This document shows positions 40,014-53,789 of a stretch of DNA of 64,000 nt, in pieces. Positions within the stretch are counted from its first letter, which is position 1. The number at the start of each line of letters is the position of its first letter. The notes beneath the pieces were generated by a model. It was not told the DNA's origin. It saw only the letters and a program-made list of their open reading frames with translations, and ran no database searches. Source of the DNA: Rhodopirellula europaea 6C (GTDB lineage Bacteria > Planctomycetota > Planctomycetia > Pirellulales > Pirellulaceae); assembly GCF_000338295.1 (NCBI RefSeq), contig NZ_ANMO01000173.1, positions 1-64,000 on the forward strand. Direction: 5' to 3'. The translations under genes and the position numbers were made by a program.

Positions 40014-41444
40014 TCACTTCGGCGCAGACGCTGCTTCCAATTGTGATTCGTGCAACATCACCGCCTTGATGATGTGACGGTCGGACAGAGTGTTCAGAGG
40101 CACCCGGTGCAGGATGCCTTTGCCGTCTTCCAGTTCCACCGTTTCGCGATCGACGATCCGATTGAGCTTGGCCTTCAAATGATGTTTGCCATCGCGATCG
40201 GTCCAGGTCGTCCAGCGCTCCTCGGCAGCAACGGCCTGATTTTGATTGCGCTGCTCTCCGACAACTTCTTCGATGGAAGCATTGTTGGTGATTGGATTGG
40301 CCAAAACTTCCCTGGCGGCTCGACTTCCCATCGCGCCCCAGATTCCATACGGACTTCGTGATCCCGCTTGGGTATATTCACGACCAATTGACACGCCGGG
40401 CTGAGAGATATCCCCCGTGTCGATGCTGTCCCGAACAAAGATGGTTCGGCCATCCATCATCAAAGCATGCACGCCATCAGCGTGCCGACTGGATGCCGAT
40501 GCAATCGGGTCCTCCATTCCCAAATCTGACAAACAGGTCGGCGAGTTGGGTGGCAAGACGGTTTGGAACCCACTGATCGCCAAAGCTCCGTCTGCCCAAC
40601 GCGATCCCCGGCGGACGTCCCACCAATCCGTATGATTGCCGTCATGCGTCTTGAGGCACAACGATGGATTCAAGCTCAACCCTTTGATTCCTTGAGCGAT
40701 GTGGGACTCCTTCGCGTCATTCTCATCCGGCGTGATCGTTTCGGACATTCCAATTGTATTGGACAACCCGTCCAAGAAGTCACGAAACTTCATTCGCCGA
40801 TTCCCGCTGAACGCACCTCGCATACCCGCCTGCACGCGCCGCATCGATTCGGCATTTTTCTGGTCAATCTTCTCACCCATCAAATACGTTCCGTCGCCGT
40901 AGCTCCATACATAGTTGCAGAACGTAGCTGGATCGATTGCTCCGGGCGGCAGCTCGGGCATCGCCAACGTCGTCACCACGATTGTTTCTTGCTCCGGCAC
41001 CTCGGGTTTCGTTTGCATATCGTCTGGACAACGCAAAGTCACAAATGCCGATGCCCAAGGTGTGTATTCCGTTGAATCAAACCAGGGCGCAGGGCCCATT
41101 GGTGGGAATTGCTTTCCGGTCTTAAGCGACACATAGGGATTCGCGATTTTTTCCCACAATGCCTGCTGTTCCAAAAAAGGCGAGAGCGCGACCAACGGGC
41201 TGAGTCGTCCTTGGTTGCAAGTGTCATCTTCTCCACCAACGGTTCCTCCCAAACCGGGCGGCAACTGATTATAAGCAGCGTGGTAGTTGTGCATCGCCAA
41301 GCCCAACATCTTGAGGTTGTTCGAACACTGAATATTTCGAGCAGCAGCACGCTGACGCAACATCACCGGCAACAACAAGCTGAATCCGACTGACACCACC
41401 ACACCGACGATGATCAGATCTGTGAGAGTGAGCTTTGATTTCAT
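40014..41444 (-). CDS. DUF1559 pilin-like protein with SHD1-like C-terminus
   Basis: 476 residues. The N-terminus has a pilin-like hydrophobic helix (LTDLIIVGVVVSVGFSLLLP) followed by NIQCSNNLKMLGLAMHNYHAAYNQLPPG, the DUF1559 signature, and the body includes the type GVHALMMDGRTIFVRDSID near 315 that closes that fold. Unlike most family members, it lacks the canonical prepilin peptidase motif GFTLxE before the helix. The last ~75 residues (WTTWTDRDGKHHLKAKLNRIV, VPLNTLSDRHIIK) match an SHD1-type beta domain. The start ATG has GGAG seven nt upstream. It is the downstream partner of a second DUF1559 gene 95 nt away, and may be a secretion- or envelope-related pseudopilin. Confidence 0.82.
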   Translation of the reverse strand: MKSKLTLTDLIIVGVVVSVGFSLLLPVMLRQRAAARNIQCSNNLKMLGLAMHNYHAAYNQLPPGLGGTVGGEDDTCNQGRLSPLVALSPFLEQQALWEKIANPYVSLKTGKQFPPMGPAPWFDSTEYTPWASAFVTLRCPDDMQTKPEVPEQETIVVTTLAMPELPPGAIDPATFCNYVWSYGDGTYLMGEKIDQKNAESMRRVQAGMRGAFSGNRRMKFRDFLDGLSNTIGMSETITPDENDAKESHIAQGIKGLSLNPSLCLKTHDGNHTDWWDVRRGSRWADGALAISGFQTVLPPNSPTCLSDLGMEDPIASASSRHADGVHALMMDGRTIFVRDSIDTGDISQPGVSIGREYTQAGSRSPYGIWGAMGSRAAREVLANPITNNASIEEVVGEQRNQNQAVAAEERWTTWTDRDGKHHLKAKLNRIVDRETVELEDGKGILHRVPLNTLSDRHIIKAVMLHESQLEAASAPK

Positions 41445-41539: not shown

Positions 41540-43264
41540 CTAGCGGCCCCCAAAAGGATCGTCGGCGGCCTCCATCGCACGCATGAACTGAATCGGCTGA
41601 CGGCCACCGCGTTGATTCATCCTTGCATCAAAAACGAGCTTCCAATGACCATCCACAAATGCCCAACTGAAGGGTCCCCTACCGGCTGCCAAAGCCTCTG
41701 GCAGCTTCTCAAGCACCTCCGGATTGGCCGTTTTCAAAGTGGCAAGTAGTTGATCGTAATCGGTGATCAGCGCACCTCGCTGTGTCCGTAACATCCCCGC
41801 TATCATTGCAACACCCGAAGGATGACCTCCCTGCTGCCCATCGCCGAAAGCAACCCATTCACGAGCAAATGTTTCGAACTGCTTGTCTTCCAACAATCCA
41901 AGCTGAGTCGACAAATGTTCGACCAACAGCTTTGCTTCTTCCAGCTTTCGTTGGCGATGAGTTTCAACCGCTCGGTAAGCGTCTTGGCTACTGAATTTCG
42001 ACAGTGCCAACCGACGAATGGCACCTTGTTCGGACATCAAGACCAACACACCCTTGTCGGTCAAATCCACCTGACGAGCCTGGATTTTTCCCGTTCCTTT
42101 TGCCGCGTGCCAAGTTTCCAGTTCAAGCTTCGCAAACTCAGCGAGTTCTTCTTCGGTGAAAGTGCGTACCGGCTCAGACAATTCGCTAGGATCGAATCGG
42201 TCCCGGGCCGCTCTTGTCCCCATCGCACCCCAAACCCCGTACGGACTCTTGCTGCCCGGGGGAAGAGTCTTGCCATTGTCCAAGTGTCCTTCGGCAACAC
42301 TCGGCGAATCCTGATCACCCACATCAATGGAACTGCTCGCGAATCGCACGGCTCCGTCCGCCATCAACACGTGAGCTCCCTCACCGTGCAGACTGGATGC
42401 GGACATCACGCCTTCGAGTTCACCTTTTTCCGATGTCGCTGAGCGAGAATTGGGTGGCAAAATGGTTTGAACACCCACTGACAACAGCGATCCGTCAGCC
42501 CAACACGCACCGCGTCCCTCAGGCCAGTATTTGGTTTGATCGTCTTCGTGAACATCGATGCAAACCGCGGGTCGCTCAATCAATCCGGGGATATTTTTGG
42601 CGACTCTCACACCGCCGATTCGGGCTTCACTCATCAGCAACGTATTGGACAACCCATCCAGCACATCGCGAAAACGAAAGACCATTTGATAGCCAAACAT
42701 GCCTCTTAAAGCACCGGGCGTTCGTCCATAGGGTGGCATTTCTTCCAGCGGCGATGCCCCGACATTCATGACCGCGTCGCCATAGTTGATCGTGTAACTG
42801 GCGACCGTCGGAAAATCCTTTGCGGTTGGATCAGCGGGACAAACCAACACCTCGGGCCGTTCGTTCCAAGGTGTGTAAACCTTTGGATCAAACCATGGAA
42901 CCGGGCCCATCGCCGGGAAGACCTTCCCATTGGCTCGCAATGGGTTGGAGATTTTTTCCCACAACGGTTGTTGTTCAAAGAATGGAGTCAAACCCACCAG
43001 CGGACTCAAACGATTCGCGTTGCCCAATGTCGGCTCGTCCGCACTTCCGGAGGATGTTCCACCGCATCCCATCGGCATCATGCTGTAAGCCGAATGGTAA
43101 TTGTGCAGGGCCAACCCCACCTGCTGGAGATTCATCTCGCAACTGGACCGTCTCGCATTTTGTCTCATTCGAGGGACAACGCCGGCCAGCAACACCAAAC
43201 CCACCATCGACGCAACACCGAGCGTAATGACATCGACAAACCTTAAGTGATACTTCGTTCCCAT
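41540..43264 (-). CDS. DUF1559 pilin-like protein, extended form
   Basis: About 574 residues from ATG 43264 (an upstream frame to 43378 is not supported). A single hydrophobic N-terminal helix (FVDVITLGVASMVGLVLLAGVVP) precedes SCEMNLQQVGLALHNYHSAYSMMPMG, the DUF1559 start. The body ends in GAHVLMADGAVRFASSSIDVGDQ, the family's closing block. Again no prepilin-peptidase motif is visible. An SHD1-like beta segment (ETWHAAKGTGKIQARQVDLTDKGVLVLM, LALSKFSSQDAYRA) follows, then a helical stretch and about 100 further residues not found in the neighbour. It lies upstream of the shorter paralogue. Confidence 0.8.
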   Translation of the reverse strand: MGTKYHLRFVDVITLGVASMVGLVLLAGVVPRMRQNARRSSCEMNLQQVGLALHNYHSAYSMMPMGCGGTSSGSADEPTLGNANRLSPLVGLTPFFEQQPLWEKISNPLRANGKVFPAMGPVPWFDPKVYTPWNERPEVLVCPADPTAKDFPTVASYTINYGDAVMNVGASPLEEMPPYGRTPGALRGMFGYQMVFRFRDVLDGLSNTLLMSEARIGGVRVAKNIPGLIERPAVCIDVHEDDQTKYWPEGRGACWADGSLLSVGVQTILPPNSRSATSEKGELEGVMSASSLHGEGAHVLMADGAVRFASSSIDVGDQDSPSVAEGHLDNGKTLPPGSKSPYGVWGAMGTRAARDRFDPSELSEPVRTFTEEELAEFAKLELETWHAAKGTGKIQARQVDLTDKGVLVLMSEQGAIRRLALSKFSSQDAYRAVETHRQRKLEEAKLLVEHLSTQLGLLEDKQFETFAREWVAFGDGQQGGHPSGVAMIAGMLRTQRGALITDYDQLLATLKTANPEVLEKLPEALAAGRGPFSWAFVDGHWKLVFDARMNQRGGRQPIQFMRAMEAADDPFGGR

Positions 43265-50144: not shown

Positions 50145-50405
50145 CGAGCACTTGCCTTGCGAAAGACTGAAGAAGGACGGTTGAGTCAAACGGGGCGAGC
50201 GGGCGTCGCGGAGGTGATGCGCCGAGGCCCGCTGGAAAACCATGGGATGACATCCTACAAACATCTGGCTTGTCTTTCGACAATTGGCCTTGATCGACTA
50301 AGCTAAGGCCCGGGTTCAACCTGAAGATTCTTTTCCTCCTTCCTCCGATTCACGGGGAATTTCGCCATCCCGGTGAACATTCCCGGTCACGCGAGATCAA
50401 AACGA

Positions 50406-51608
50406 ATGGCACACGGCGCAGCGAAAAAGGTTCCCGCAGGCCCCCCCCGCGATATGTCGCCCGATGCGGTCGCAGCGCGGCTGAAAAGCAGTTTGCTGCA
50501 GGAAAAGAAGGAACTCGAAGTCGACAAAATCTTCCGGGCACTGGTCAAACTGGAAGGTTCAGACCTTCACCTGAAAGTCGATCAGCCACCCATGGTTCGC
50601 GTCGGCGGTGAACTCAAACCGCTCAATCGGGGACCAATCGGAGCCGAAGAAATGGTGCGGCTGCTGCTCCCGATGATGGACGATCGCAACCTGATCATCT
50701 TCGAAGAAGAAGGCGGGGCTGACTTTTCATACCAATGCGAAGTCGACGGCGTCCGCTGGCGATTCCGGATCAACATGCTGAAATCGCTGGGCAACATCGG
50801 TTTGGTCGCTCGCCGGATCAGCAACTTCATCCCCGACTTTCGCGGCCTCTTCCTGCCCGACTCGATCGAAAACCTTTGCCACTACGAACAGGGCATGGTT
50901 CTGCTCGCCGGAGTCACGGGCTCGGGAAAAAGTACCACGATCGGTTCGATGCTGAACTACATCAACAGCATCTATCGAAAACACATCCTGACGCTCGAAG
51001 ACCCGATCGAATTTATCTTCACGGAAGACAAATCGCTGATCAACCAACGCGAAATTGGTCAGGACGTCGTGGACTTCTCCGTCGGAATGAAACACGCCGT
51101 GCGGGAAGACCCCGACATCATTCTGGTCGGTGAGCTTCGGGACGAAGAAACGTTCATGACGGCGATTCACGCTGCCGAAACAGGTCACTTGGTTTTCGGA
51201 ACGATCCACGCCGCGAGTGCCTCGACCTGCATCGGCCGGATCCTGGACTTGTTCCCCGAAGAAATGCACAACGCCATCCGCAGCGCCATCGCCTTCAACA
51301 TGAAAGGCATCGTCGCCCAGAAATTGCTCAAGAGCATCAAGCCCGGCGTCTCGCGAGTGCCAACCTGCGAAGTGATGACGTTCTCGCCGATGATTCGCAA
51401 ACTGGTCCTCGAAGGCCACGACAACAAACTACCCGATGCGATTCGCATCGGTGCCGAAGACGGCATGCAAGACTTCACCATGAGTTTGAAACAATTGATC
51501 GACGACGAATTGATTGATCGGCCGACCGCGTTCGCAGTCGCACCGAACAAGGACGCGCTGAAGATGGCGCTCAAGGGCATCGACGTCAAAGCACCAGGAA
51601 TTCTGTAA
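50406..51608 (+). CDS. PilT/GspE-superfamily ATPase (active form of the pair)
   Basis: 400 residues from ATG 50406 (GTG 50373 possible). An N-terminal PAS-like domain leads into the RecA-like ATPase core. The Walker A motif GVTGSGKST (169-177), Asp box LTLEDPIEF, Walker B DPDIILVGELRDEE (236-249) and His box TGHLVFGTIHAA (259-270) are all intact. PilT-type retraction ATPases have this order; the overall family also includes GspE-like assembly ATPases. The next gene begins at once (GTG 51609), giving a coupled pair. No pilin, PilC or secretin gene is adjacent. Confidence 0.88.
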   Translation: MAHGAAKKVPAGPPRDMSPDAVAARLKSSLLQEKKELEVDKIFRALVKLEGSDLHLKVDQPPMVRVGGELKPLNRGPIGAEEMVRLLLPMMDDRNLIIFEEEGGADFSYQCEVDGVRWRFRINMLKSLGNIGLVARRISNFIPDFRGLFLPDSIENLCHYEQGMVLLAGVTGSGKSTTIGSMLNYINSIYRKHILTLEDPIEFIFTEDKSLINQREIGQDVVDFSVGMKHAVREDPDIILVGELRDEETFMTAIHAAETGHLVFGTIHAASASTCIGRILDLFPEEMHNAIRSAIAFNMKGIVAQKLLKSIKPGVSRVPTCEVMTFSPMIRKLVLEGHDNKLPDAIRIGAEDGMQDFTMSLKQLIDDELIDRPTAFAVAPNKDALKMALKGIDVKAPGIL

Positions 51609-52949
51609 GTGGCAAAGCAATCCAACGAAGAAGTACAACTCTGGCAAACCGTCGCTCCCGTGGAATTCGTTCCTCGGATCAAAGACAACAACGAATTGCA
51701 AGCGTTGCTGATCAGCACCCGCCAAGGCGCCGGCTATGCCATCGCCGGCGGCCAAATTGCGCACGCGATCACTTCGCGAGCCACGCACATCCTGATGGAC
51801 TTTTCCAAGTCCGCTTGTGCGATTCGCTATCAAATCGACGGGGCCTGGGAACAGCTTCCGCCGCTGGATCGCGAAAGCGGCGACGCAATGCTGTACGCGT
51901 TGAAGCAACTGTGCTTGATGAATCCGGCCGATCGTCGTGGCAGCCAAAAAGGCGGCATGCGAGTCAAATTGGTCAAGGACAAGTACCAATTCAACGTTCA
52001 ATCACAAGGCGTGCCCACCGGCGAGCGTGTGATCTGTCGTCTGGAAGCCGAAGAGATGCCGTTCAAGAAATTGGGCGACCTCGGCATGCGGGACAAAATG
52101 ATCGAACAGTTCAAAGAGAAACTGAACGGTTCGGGCAACATCGTCCTCATCACGGCCAAAAAGAGCGAAGGTGTTTCGACTTTCTGGAACGTCGCCATCA
52201 GCGCCGCCGACCGGTTGGTCCGTGACTTCCAATCGTTCGAACCTGCGGAATCACCCGAACCCGAGATCATCAATATCTCGCCCAACTTGTTCGGTGGAGA
52301 CACGGGGAAAACCGAACTCGAGATGGTCAACCGAATGGTTCTGCGTGAACCGGACGTGTTGATGTTCCCCAACCCGCCGCAGCCTGAATCACTGAAGGTT
52401 GCGTTGGAACAAGTCGTCGCGGCCGACCGACAAGTCATCCACCGGATGGCGGCCGAAAGTGCCATGCCCGCCTTGCTCACGTTCCTGGGCCGTTACCCGG
52501 AATGTCGCAGCCTGATCGCAAACAACATCGGCTGTGTGATTCATCAGCGACTGGTTCGACGTTTGTGTGACAACTGTAAAGTCGGGTTTGAACCGCCCCC
52601 AAAGCTGCTCGCTCAACTGGGCATCCCCGCCGGTCGAGTTCCGTTGCTCTACAAGCCGTTCATCCCGCCGCCGATCGAACAACAAGTCGACGAGAACGGG
52701 CGGCCTGCGCCAATCACACCGTGCCCCGTCTGCAACTCACGAGGCTACCACGGTCGCATCGGGCTGTACGAACTGCTGACACCAGGCCCGCAACTTAAAG
52801 CGGCCTTGGCCAAGTCTCCAGATGCCGGCCAGTTGACCGCGATCGCCAAATCCGAAGGTTTCCGCCCCGTCCAATCCGAAGCCGTCCTCACGGTCGCGCG
52901 AGGACTGACTAGCCTCGACGAACTCAAACGAGCCTTCGCCAAACGCTAG
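51609..52949 (+). CDS. PilB/GspE-like protein with degenerate nucleotide-binding motifs
   Basis: 446 residues starting at GTG 51609 with no gap after the PilT-like gene. It has the GspE/PilB fold by pattern, including the zinc-like tetra-Cys site (C320, C323 in CDNC and C372, C375 in CPVC) and the C-terminal GYHGRIGLYELL block. The P-loop is lost: where GxxxxGK(T/S) should be, the sequence reads TAKKSEGVST (182-191). Walker B reads EPDVLMFPNP (247-256) in place of DPDxxxVGExRD. The protein is therefore a likely non-catalytic partner of the preceding ATPase, perhaps an assembly or regulatory subunit of the hexamer (inference). Confidence 0.8.
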   Translation: MAKQSNEEVQLWQTVAPVEFVPRIKDNNELQALLISTRQGAGYAIAGGQIAHAITSRATHILMDFSKSACAIRYQIDGAWEQLPPLDRESGDAMLYALKQLCLMNPADRRGSQKGGMRVKLVKDKYQFNVQSQGVPTGERVICRLEAEEMPFKKLGDLGMRDKMIEQFKEKLNGSGNIVLITAKKSEGVSTFWNVAISAADRLVRDFQSFEPAESPEPEIINISPNLFGGDTGKTELEMVNRMVLREPDVLMFPNPPQPESLKVALEQVVAADRQVIHRMAAESAMPALLTFLGRYPECRSLIANNIGCVIHQRLVRRLCDNCKVGFEPPPKLLAQLGIPAGRVPLLYKPFIPPPIEQQVDENGRPAPITPCPVCNSRGYHGRIGLYELLTPGPQLKAALAKSPDAGQLTAIAKSEGFRPVQSEAVLTVARGLTSLDELKRAFAKR

Positions 52950-53290
52950 CCCGCCATTCCGGACACGTCGCCCCACATTGGCACAAGCAGCTCCACCCTT
53001 CGTAGGCCGGATCGCAGCGGAGCGACGGACTCTGCATGGCAGCACTCACCTTCGTTCCACTCAACAAGGCCGGAACGTTGCTGACTAGCAGCATCGAACG
53101 ATCCGTGAGCAAGAACGCTACCGCAGTTCTCTGGCGCAGTGGTATGGTTAATTTACCTCCGTCCCCTTTGATCGTTCTCAGAGGACTCGAGCTTCGGCTA
53201 GACGACGCGTTTTGAACTGCGACGAACGAAGCAACATGAAGGAGAAAGCGATTCAACCGTCGCATCCACGTGATGTCAAATCTTTGTTGG
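52950..53290. other. 341-nt non-coding accessory stretch
   Basis: Between the PilB-like gene and the toxin gene I see no gene with start, ribosome site and coding signal. It contains one REP-like palindrome (53001-53029). The rest is unassigned, and the frames open here read through that repeat. Confidence 0.5.
53001..53029. repeat. REP-like palindromic element
   Basis: The element is CCGGA-TCGC-AGCGGA-GCGA-CGG at 53007-53028: the arms TCGC and GCGA flank the loop AGCGGA, with further pairing of CCG and CGG outside. Short palindromes of this type recur in planctomycete intergenic regions (from memory). A transposase fragment of the family that mobilises such repeats lies 800 nt downstream. 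Confidence 0.45.
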
Positions 53291-53590
53291 TTATGGCATC
53301 GTCCGGTCGAACCAATCCGCCTGATCGGACGCGGCGTGACGCAAACCATAGATCGAAGGAACGCCATCATCAGAAGCAAAGACAACAACGTAAGGAAACC
53401 GGTCAACCAGTGCGCCACGGAAATCACCGCCGATCCGACCAAATGAGTCGGGGCGATTGACGACATCGCGTATCGCAGACCGCACGTTAGCCCGGAAGCG
53501 GTTGCCGAGCGTGGAAGCAATCGAATCGTAGTAAGAACAAGCAGTAGCCAAGTCGACGGCGAAGAATGGATGGTAGCGTTCAGTCGCCAT
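53291..53590 (-). CDS. ParE/RelE-family toxin
   Basis: 99 residues from ATG 53590. The sequence ATERYHPFFAVDLATACSYYDSI matches the ParE/RelE beta-alpha-alpha start (a helix carrying DLxxAxxYYD), and VDRFPYVVVFASDDGVPSIYGLRHAA is its conserved C-terminal strand (FPY...V...AV.H..R). Such toxins poison gyrase or cleave ribosome-bound mRNA. Its start overlaps the antitoxin stop by 11 nt, so antitoxin is made first. The genome context is a small accessory island. Confidence 0.78.
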   Translation of the reverse strand: MATERYHPFFAVDLATACSYYDSIASTLGNRFRANVRSAIRDVVNRPDSFGRIGGDFRGALVDRFPYVVVFASDDGVPSIYGLRHAASDQADWFDRTMP

Positions 53591-53789
53591 CGACACGTCG
53601 CCAGACTTCGTCAGCGTCAATTGCGATAGAAGGGTCCACAAGCATTTCGTCACGCCGACGTTGCATTTCGGCAAGCTCGTCAGGTGGTAGCGTTAGCGGT
53701 GCCGAAGCAGCCAAGTCGTCCCAGAGTTGCGTTACGATCGCGAGCTTCTGGTCGGGAGGTAGAGAACGAAGTGATTCTTGCAGCGTCAT
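53580..53789 (-). CDS. Antitoxin of addiction-module type (PF09720-like)
   Basis: 69 residues from ATG 53789, which has AGGA seven nt upstream; a further ATG at 53819 is less likely. The sequence LRSLPPDQKLAIVTQLWDDLA and the following PLTLPPDELAEMQRRRDEMLVDPS match the small acidic addiction module family, which binds its toxin through the C-terminal half. It precedes the toxin gene with an overlap and probably represses the operon (family knowledge). Confidence 0.78.
   Translation of the reverse strand: MTLQESLRSLPPDQKLAIVTQLWDDLAASAPLTLPPDELAEMQRRRDEMLVDPSIAIDADEVWRRVDGD

Follow-up and report, generated by a model that had tools for sequence, protein, structure and literature searches.

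A PilT-type ATPase paired with a maintained PilB/GspE-like pseudo-ATPase in Rhodopirellula europaea 6C, possibly a reduced form of a PilT/GspE/CvpA membrane module

The window analyzed here, i.e., the whole stretch of 64,000 nucleotides at the start of contig NZ_ANMO01000173.1 of Rhodopirellula europaea 6C, carries two abutting genes on its forward strand: the stop codon of the first ends at position 51608 and the second starts with the GTG at 51609, as an earlier note on this DNA had stated. The first gene (50406..51608, with an alternative start possible at GTG 50373) encodes a PilT-type ATPase of 400 amino acids, which matches PF00437 with 136.6 bits in a profile search and belongs to the PilT/PilU family TIGR01420, with 366.6 bits and thus above the curated cut-off of 319.1. 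All its motifs are intact, in agreement with the same note: Walker A (GVTGSGKSTT, of which GVTGSGKST lies at 50910..50936), the Asp box (TLEDPIEF), Walker B (DPDIILVGELRD, 51108..51143) and the His box (GTIHAASA). Among 85 PilT rows, taken from loci within and outside the window's order, the catalytic Lys, Glu and His are kept in every ungapped row (82, 84 and 84 rows, respectively), and comparison of the window gene with five congeners gave dN/dS values of 0.020-0.058.

The second gene (51609..52949) encodes a PilB/GspE-like protein of 446 amino acids, in a soluble form. This protein clears the gathering score of PF00437 (103.5 bits, cut-off 24.9), stays well below the NCBIfam equivalogs for GspE and type IVa PilB (98.7-124.9 vs. 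617-676 bits), and has no TIGR01420 match among the matches listed. In an alignment with Thermus PilF and with relatives, AKKSEGVS stands opposite the PilF P-loop GPTGSGKS (degenerate P-loop AKKSEGVST, residues 183-191, 52155..52181) and PNPPQ opposite GEIRD (degenerate Walker B REPDVLMFPNPP, residues 246-257, 52344..52379), so that V189 is found for the P-loop Lys and N255 for the Walker B Glu; the His box is likewise replaced. Four cysteines are present as two pairs, C320/C323 (52566..52577) and C372/C375 (52722..52733), which, by analogy with PilB/GspE, are candidate zinc ligands; the zinc-site region is a feature of PilB/GspE proteins. The AlphaFold model, built on a 49-row alignment, reached a pLDDT of 92.9 and a pTM of 0.86, and the closest solved structures are PilB (5zfr, Z 34.7 over 378 residues; best Foldseek match also PilB, E 1.9e-32). 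Moreover, the open reading frame is full-length in 12/12 congeners, and dN/dS of the window gene against five of them is 0.044-0.081, similar to the range for PilT; for the two most remote of the five congeners, dS is saturated. As the predicted fold is intact and dN/dS is this low despite the loss of the motifs, we consider the second protein a maintained pseudo-ATPase, and the retention of the fold, the four cysteines and the C-terminal block, proposed earlier, is borne out.

The conservation of the pair was then followed across the window's order. The second protein found matches in 60/60 genomes, its own included, although ordinary PilB also matches; the regions around the best matches were fetched, and the final alignment holds 75 pseudo domains from 72 loci. 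Near-identical or doubled loci (L013, L014 and L018) were dropped before tree building, while two intact copies from the order (L090 and L091) were kept in the tree, outside the 75. With the motif columns excluded, the 75 pseudo domains form one clade (SH-aLRT 100), and the named close relatives of the window protein come from Neorhodopirellula, Aporhodopirellula, Rhodopirellula, Rubripirellula, Stieleria and Roseiconus. A P-loop Lys remains in 2/75 domains, a His-box His in 1/75 and the Walker B Glu in 24/75, in no case after Gly (GE pair 0/75); none of the domains has all three residues and 48 have none. Other positions are retained, namely the Asp upstream of the Walker B acid column (60/75), the Asp-box Glu 211 (62/75), the remaining cysteines of the tetra-Cys site (C320 in 72/75; C372 and C375 in 74/75 each, with one row gapped) and, in all 75, Asp77, Gly188, Asp201, Pro248, Arg317 and Cys323. 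Since the motif loss is held over 75 domains and 72 loci under a dN/dS of 0.044-0.081, it is not a matter of chance. The claim that the second protein has lost both the P-loop and the Walker B acid pattern thus stands for the window, where the acid is Asn 255, but for the acid it does not extend to all orthologous domains, as the 24 with Glu attest.

In 45/50 order loci the gene directly upstream, in the same orientation, is PilT; in the other five PilT is not adjacent, some of these loci being on short contigs. Accordingly, the combination of an active and an inactive ATPase described earlier is both order-wide and linked. Gene order is conserved further out, with HisF upstream in 38/50 loci and a DUF4190-like gene downstream in 31/50, to neither of which we attach a functional reading. 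Altogether, sequence analysis confirms that the gene pair consists of a PilT with all catalytic motifs and a maintained PilB/GspE-like pseudo-ATPase. As a separate observation, contig 22 of genome G005 carries, at 2231-2494, a fragment that is 91% identical to residues 359-446 of the pseudo-ATPase, with a TAG inside the frame, approximately 8.5 kb from the full pseudo-ATPase gene.

Relatives of the second protein that adjoin PilT or CvpA also occur beyond the order, both within the same class, in other families, and in further classes. In 17 loci from outside the order with PilT or CvpA beside the gene, the Lys is kept in 15, the Walker B Glu in 16 and the His in 14; the exceptions are L109 and L112, which are degenerate, and L144, with Gln for His. 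Twelve further loci were left unextracted, nine belonging to genomes already sampled and three (L133, L135 and L138) to additional species of one genus. PilT is not adjacent in three of nine class-level intact loci (L097, L100 and L101). Within the order, genome G043 has two extra copies with intact motifs, L090 and L091, GspE-type proteins located next to CvpA-like open reading frames and without PilT; the same genome also carries a PilT-paired pseudo-ATPase (L092). Orthologues with an intact Walker A, which the earlier note had named as a refutation, thus do exist outside the order, and G043 adds its two intact copies; the catalytic loss is therefore lineage-specific. Family f21 contains degenerate soluble paralogues without PilT or CvpA (L105, L107, L108 and L115).

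Regarding the number of losses, the maximum-likelihood tree without motif columns placed the order clade, L109/L112 and the soluble f21 paralogues on one side (support 93), and a clade joining the pseudo domains of the order with the class-level intact domains was not rejected (p-AU 0.23). In the PilT tree, L109 and L112 group with PilTs of other classes (99), and forcing them with the order gave a p-AU of 0.084; the root of that tree is void, as its two own-genome outgroup rows have a branch length of 10 and are evidently wrong or misaligned. Changes at the Walker B Glu amounted to 20 on the tree, a noisy count. Independently, a single in-frame stop was observed to divide the PilT gene of genome G188 (L110:11556-12689, reverse strand) into two neighbouring open reading frames.

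We then focused on two features that are visible in relatives and not in the window sequence, a presumably ancestral membrane domain and a CvpA-like neighbour. An extra N-terminal domain, composed of a signal-like segment and hydrophobic helices, is present in 31/49 order loci; in the model of L071 the helices span residues 45-71, 76-96 and 100-125 (pLDDT 84.9), and the window protein starts just past the position of this domain. Downstream of the long forms, a CvpA-family membrane protein of approximately 200 residues is encoded. Ten such proteins, chosen from 56 model matches, were tested against PF02674, of which six pass the cut-off and four match below it; an eleventh likewise matches below the cut-off. 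The two features go together: in the 49 order loci both are present in 30, neither in 18, the domain only in one (L080) and CvpA only in none, counting L086 as CvpA-positive by hand (contig ends, with the match on another contig), including L061 and L067 although their CvpA frame is on the other strand, and leaving L087 out for its length. At the whole-genome level, 15 of 37 relatives have the membrane domain and the same 15 have CvpA, while both are absent from all 13 genomes of the window's genus, and a genome search found no match to either in the window's own genome.

The same pattern was seen in wider samples, which overlap with each other, and in which absences are less sure, as only the best-ranked candidates of large genomes were scored. 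Among 118 genomes of the class, the domain was found in 90 and CvpA in 89 (both in 89, domain only in G240, CvpA only in none, neither in 28). The two lie within 5 kb in 86 of the 89 genomes with both, 66 of which are outside the order; the remaining three (G083, G195 and G235), which belong to a single genus, keep both although CvpA lies on another contig or at a distance of 0.24-1.1 Mb. In 149 genomes of the phylum, 20 were positive for the domain and 16 for CvpA, all 16 shared; the domain without a CvpA match occurs in G090, G152, G185 and G203, and in G090 and G152 an adjacent open reading frame fits a CvpA locus model that was itself partly built from them.

Families f1, f21, f97, f98 and f100 each hold both states and, therefore, if these families are natural groups, domain and CvpA were jointly lost several times. 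At least six changes of state of the domain are counted on the order tree, but firmly supported branches provide only three independent pairs (sign test p 0.25). Moreover, three genomes carry tandem duplicates, each with one membrane-form and one soluble-form pseudo-ATPase (L049:8621-11869, L054:6908-10617 and L134:3-2736). The soluble copies group with the window's lineage, at a support of no more than 82, and the membrane copies stand separately, a weak sign that the gene was first duplicated and that the membrane copy and CvpA were then lost. In L054 and L134, the P-loop column of the soluble copy still shows a Lys.

The genomic setting was surveyed for platform genes. A profile search returned no PF00482 platform match on the window contig, consistent with the earlier remark that no pilus genes are adjacent. 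In the whole genome there are 11 T2SSE places, and PF00482 matches lie on eight contigs other than the window's; on contig 114, two full-length and one short, PilT-sized T2SSE ATPase lie near a platform gene. Using six own-genome platform proteins as phmmer queries, a PilC-like gene was found in 0/51 order loci, some of them cut short by contig ends, and in 1/20 outside loci (L105). As a control the search is trivial, in that it recovered the six query loci themselves, L105 being the sole independent find. There, a soluble degenerate GspE paralogue of family f21 is followed downstream by three adjacent PilC/GspF-like open reading frames (L105:11556-15446, forward strand, 59-88 bits), a separate case of a dead ATPase beside platform genes. 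Around the pair, a scan of 50200-53200 returned no sigma-70-type promoter, which says little for this phylum, and a small open reading frame at 53291-53674 (reverse strand) resembles, by eye, a ParE/RelE-type toxin of a toxin-antitoxin pair. The window also encodes two neighbouring SBP_bac_10 (DUF1559) proteins on the reverse strand (40416-41351 and 42320-43168, PF07596), which had been put forward as candidate cargo of the machine. That idea finds no support: PF07596 has 79 match places in the genome, some being pieces of one gene, with approximately 0.7 expected per 64 kb and two present in the window, and no special link was seen.

PilT and PilB are thought to work via PilC (PMC13142100). 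In the reading that we favour, to which we would give about even chances, the pair derives from a PilC-less PilT/GspE/CvpA membrane module, in which GspE became a non-catalytic, PilT-docking ring in the order and a soluble partner in the window's lineage. The ancestor would have comprised a soluble PilT, a GspE/PilB-type protein with a three-helix N-terminal anchor, and a CvpA-like membrane protein. In the order, the GspE-type ring would have lost ATP hydrolysis and kept a structural role, and PilT would therefore be the only motor left in the pair. The dead GspE ring would stack on the PilT hexamer, in physical contact with it, and, via its membrane domain, would dock PilT onto CvpA, which would stand in for PilC; force would be transferred through such an assembly to a load. 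We propose that the GspE-like ring serves as an adaptor, seating PilT on a membrane complex that contains CvpA, because the partner is dead, PilT is alive and no PilC is near, and also because the membrane domain and CvpA occupy the place of a platform. What the sequences establish is the pairing, the catalytic loss, the purifying selection, the predicted retention of the fold, and the shared presence or absence of the membrane domain and CvpA. The occurrence of the same arrangement with intact motifs outside the order also favours this reading. Against it stand the loci in which PilT is not adjacent, the cases of the domain without a CvpA match, the small number of independent pairs on firm branches, and the pseudo domains that retain one of the catalytic residues. 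Moreover, the docking model cannot hold unchanged in the window's genome, as both the membrane domain and CvpA are absent there. In the window's lineage the two would have been lost together, and the remaining soluble pseudo-ATPase would continue to bind PilT, stacked on it as an adaptor or regulator and working with another membrane partner; thus, we regard the window pair, with neither domain nor CvpA, as a reduced derivative of the module.

The strongest competing explanation, which we nevertheless regard as unlikely, is an accessory retraction motor serving the ordinary type IV pilus of the cell, with PilT and an inert PilB-like ring stacked, in the manner of PilT with PilU, under the PilC of a pilus encoded elsewhere. 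With the same modest probability, the inert ring would tune retraction or compete with PilB. Membership of the window PilT in the PilT/PilU family fits with this, as does the precedent of PilU, a second ring for which PilT is required even in a dead form (PMC13142100). Platform genes do exist in the genome, both near the T2SSE ATPases of contig 114 and, as PF00482 matches, on seven further contigs, and a soluble pair would need another platform, since the window's lineage has no membrane domain and no CvpA. However, a PilT-sized ATPase is already encoded at the contig 114 locus itself, and no PilC-like gene was found near the pair in the 51 order loci.

It could also be argued that the second protein acts in signalling or as a scaffold outside any motor and simply shares an operon with PilT. 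The PilB of M. xanthus has been reported as a signalling protein (PMC5544727), and PilT is non-adjacent in those 5/50 loci. Yet the linkage with PilT persists throughout the order and in further classes, and the protein retains both its two-domain fold and the conserved block at its C terminus, which makes this explanation improbable.

Slightly less probable still is the mixed heterohexamer raised in the earlier note, in which a single ring would be built of PilT and pseudo subunits in alternation, the latter altering its stepping. Both proteins share the superfamily fold, and the model of the second aligns with PilT4 (Z 25.9 over 325 residues). Nevertheless, they belong to different subfamilies, the second protein has no TIGR01420 match listed, and its zinc-site region is a PilB/GspE feature. 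An Arg of the N2 domain, which we take to be the inter-subunit (trans) residue equivalent to EpsE R225, bears on the question from both sides: it is kept in 12/75 pseudo domains and in all four degenerate soluble f21 paralogues, but it is not Arg in the other 63, the window protein included. This presumed trans Arg was found in 6/6 own-genome paralogues, in 0/2 for L109/L112, and in 17/17 relatives that had been picked for intact motifs. On these sequence grounds the mixed ring is weakened, and the other suggestion of the earlier note, a docking factor, fits better; overall, its interpretation is partly supported. Lastly, a second gene that is decaying and on its way out, as the lost catalytic motifs might suggest, is hardly credible, given its dN/dS of 0.044-0.081, its full length in all 12 congeners and the pLDDT of its model.

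Compared with known systems, the second protein is like the PilB/GspE ATPases (PF00437) in its fold, two-domain core and tetra-Cys site, but unlike them it has no P-loop, Walker B GE or His box, the presumed trans Arg is mostly lost, and many of its relatives carry the three-helix N-terminal membrane domain. The first protein resembles the PilT/PilU retraction ATPases of type IVa pili, in scoring above the TIGR01420 cut-off and keeping the catalytic motifs; unlike in PilT/PilU, the partner here is PilB/GspE-like and not PilT-like, and no platform gene lies beside the pair. The neighbour in relatives is like the CvpA/Colicin_V family (PF02674), which has been described in connection with the export of colicin V and with resistance to deoxycholate (PMC6705877). 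In contrast to CvpA as described in the passages of that report that were consulted, where no ATPase partner appears, the CvpA-like gene of the relatives lies beside a GspE-like gene. Among the literature matches listed, from a coverage that leaves out most subscription journals, there was no earlier report of a PilT/GspE/CvpA module.

By its taxonomy, Stieleria maiorica is presumably a bearer of the predicted dead soluble form (two other Stieleria species match), and Planctopirus limnophila of the predicted intact form. Genetic tools have been reported for both (PMC11958385). Planctomycete fibres and crateriform structures, described in PMC5394234 and PMC8303584, are a possible load of the pair. 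More tentatively than for the module itself, and with somewhat less than even probability, we propose that planctomycetes have a separate kind of PilT-powered membrane machine without PilC, in which PilT would act on a membrane-anchored GspE ring joined to a CvpA-type protein, and in which GspE has become a dead stator or adaptor in one order, giving a naturally occurring pair of active and inactive motors. By coupling a motor ATPase to a dead relative across an order, nature has set the structural role of the PilB/GspE ring apart from its catalytic one. That the membrane domain and CvpA are kept or lost together speaks for a platform other than PilC, and the module would offer CvpA both a partner and a role.
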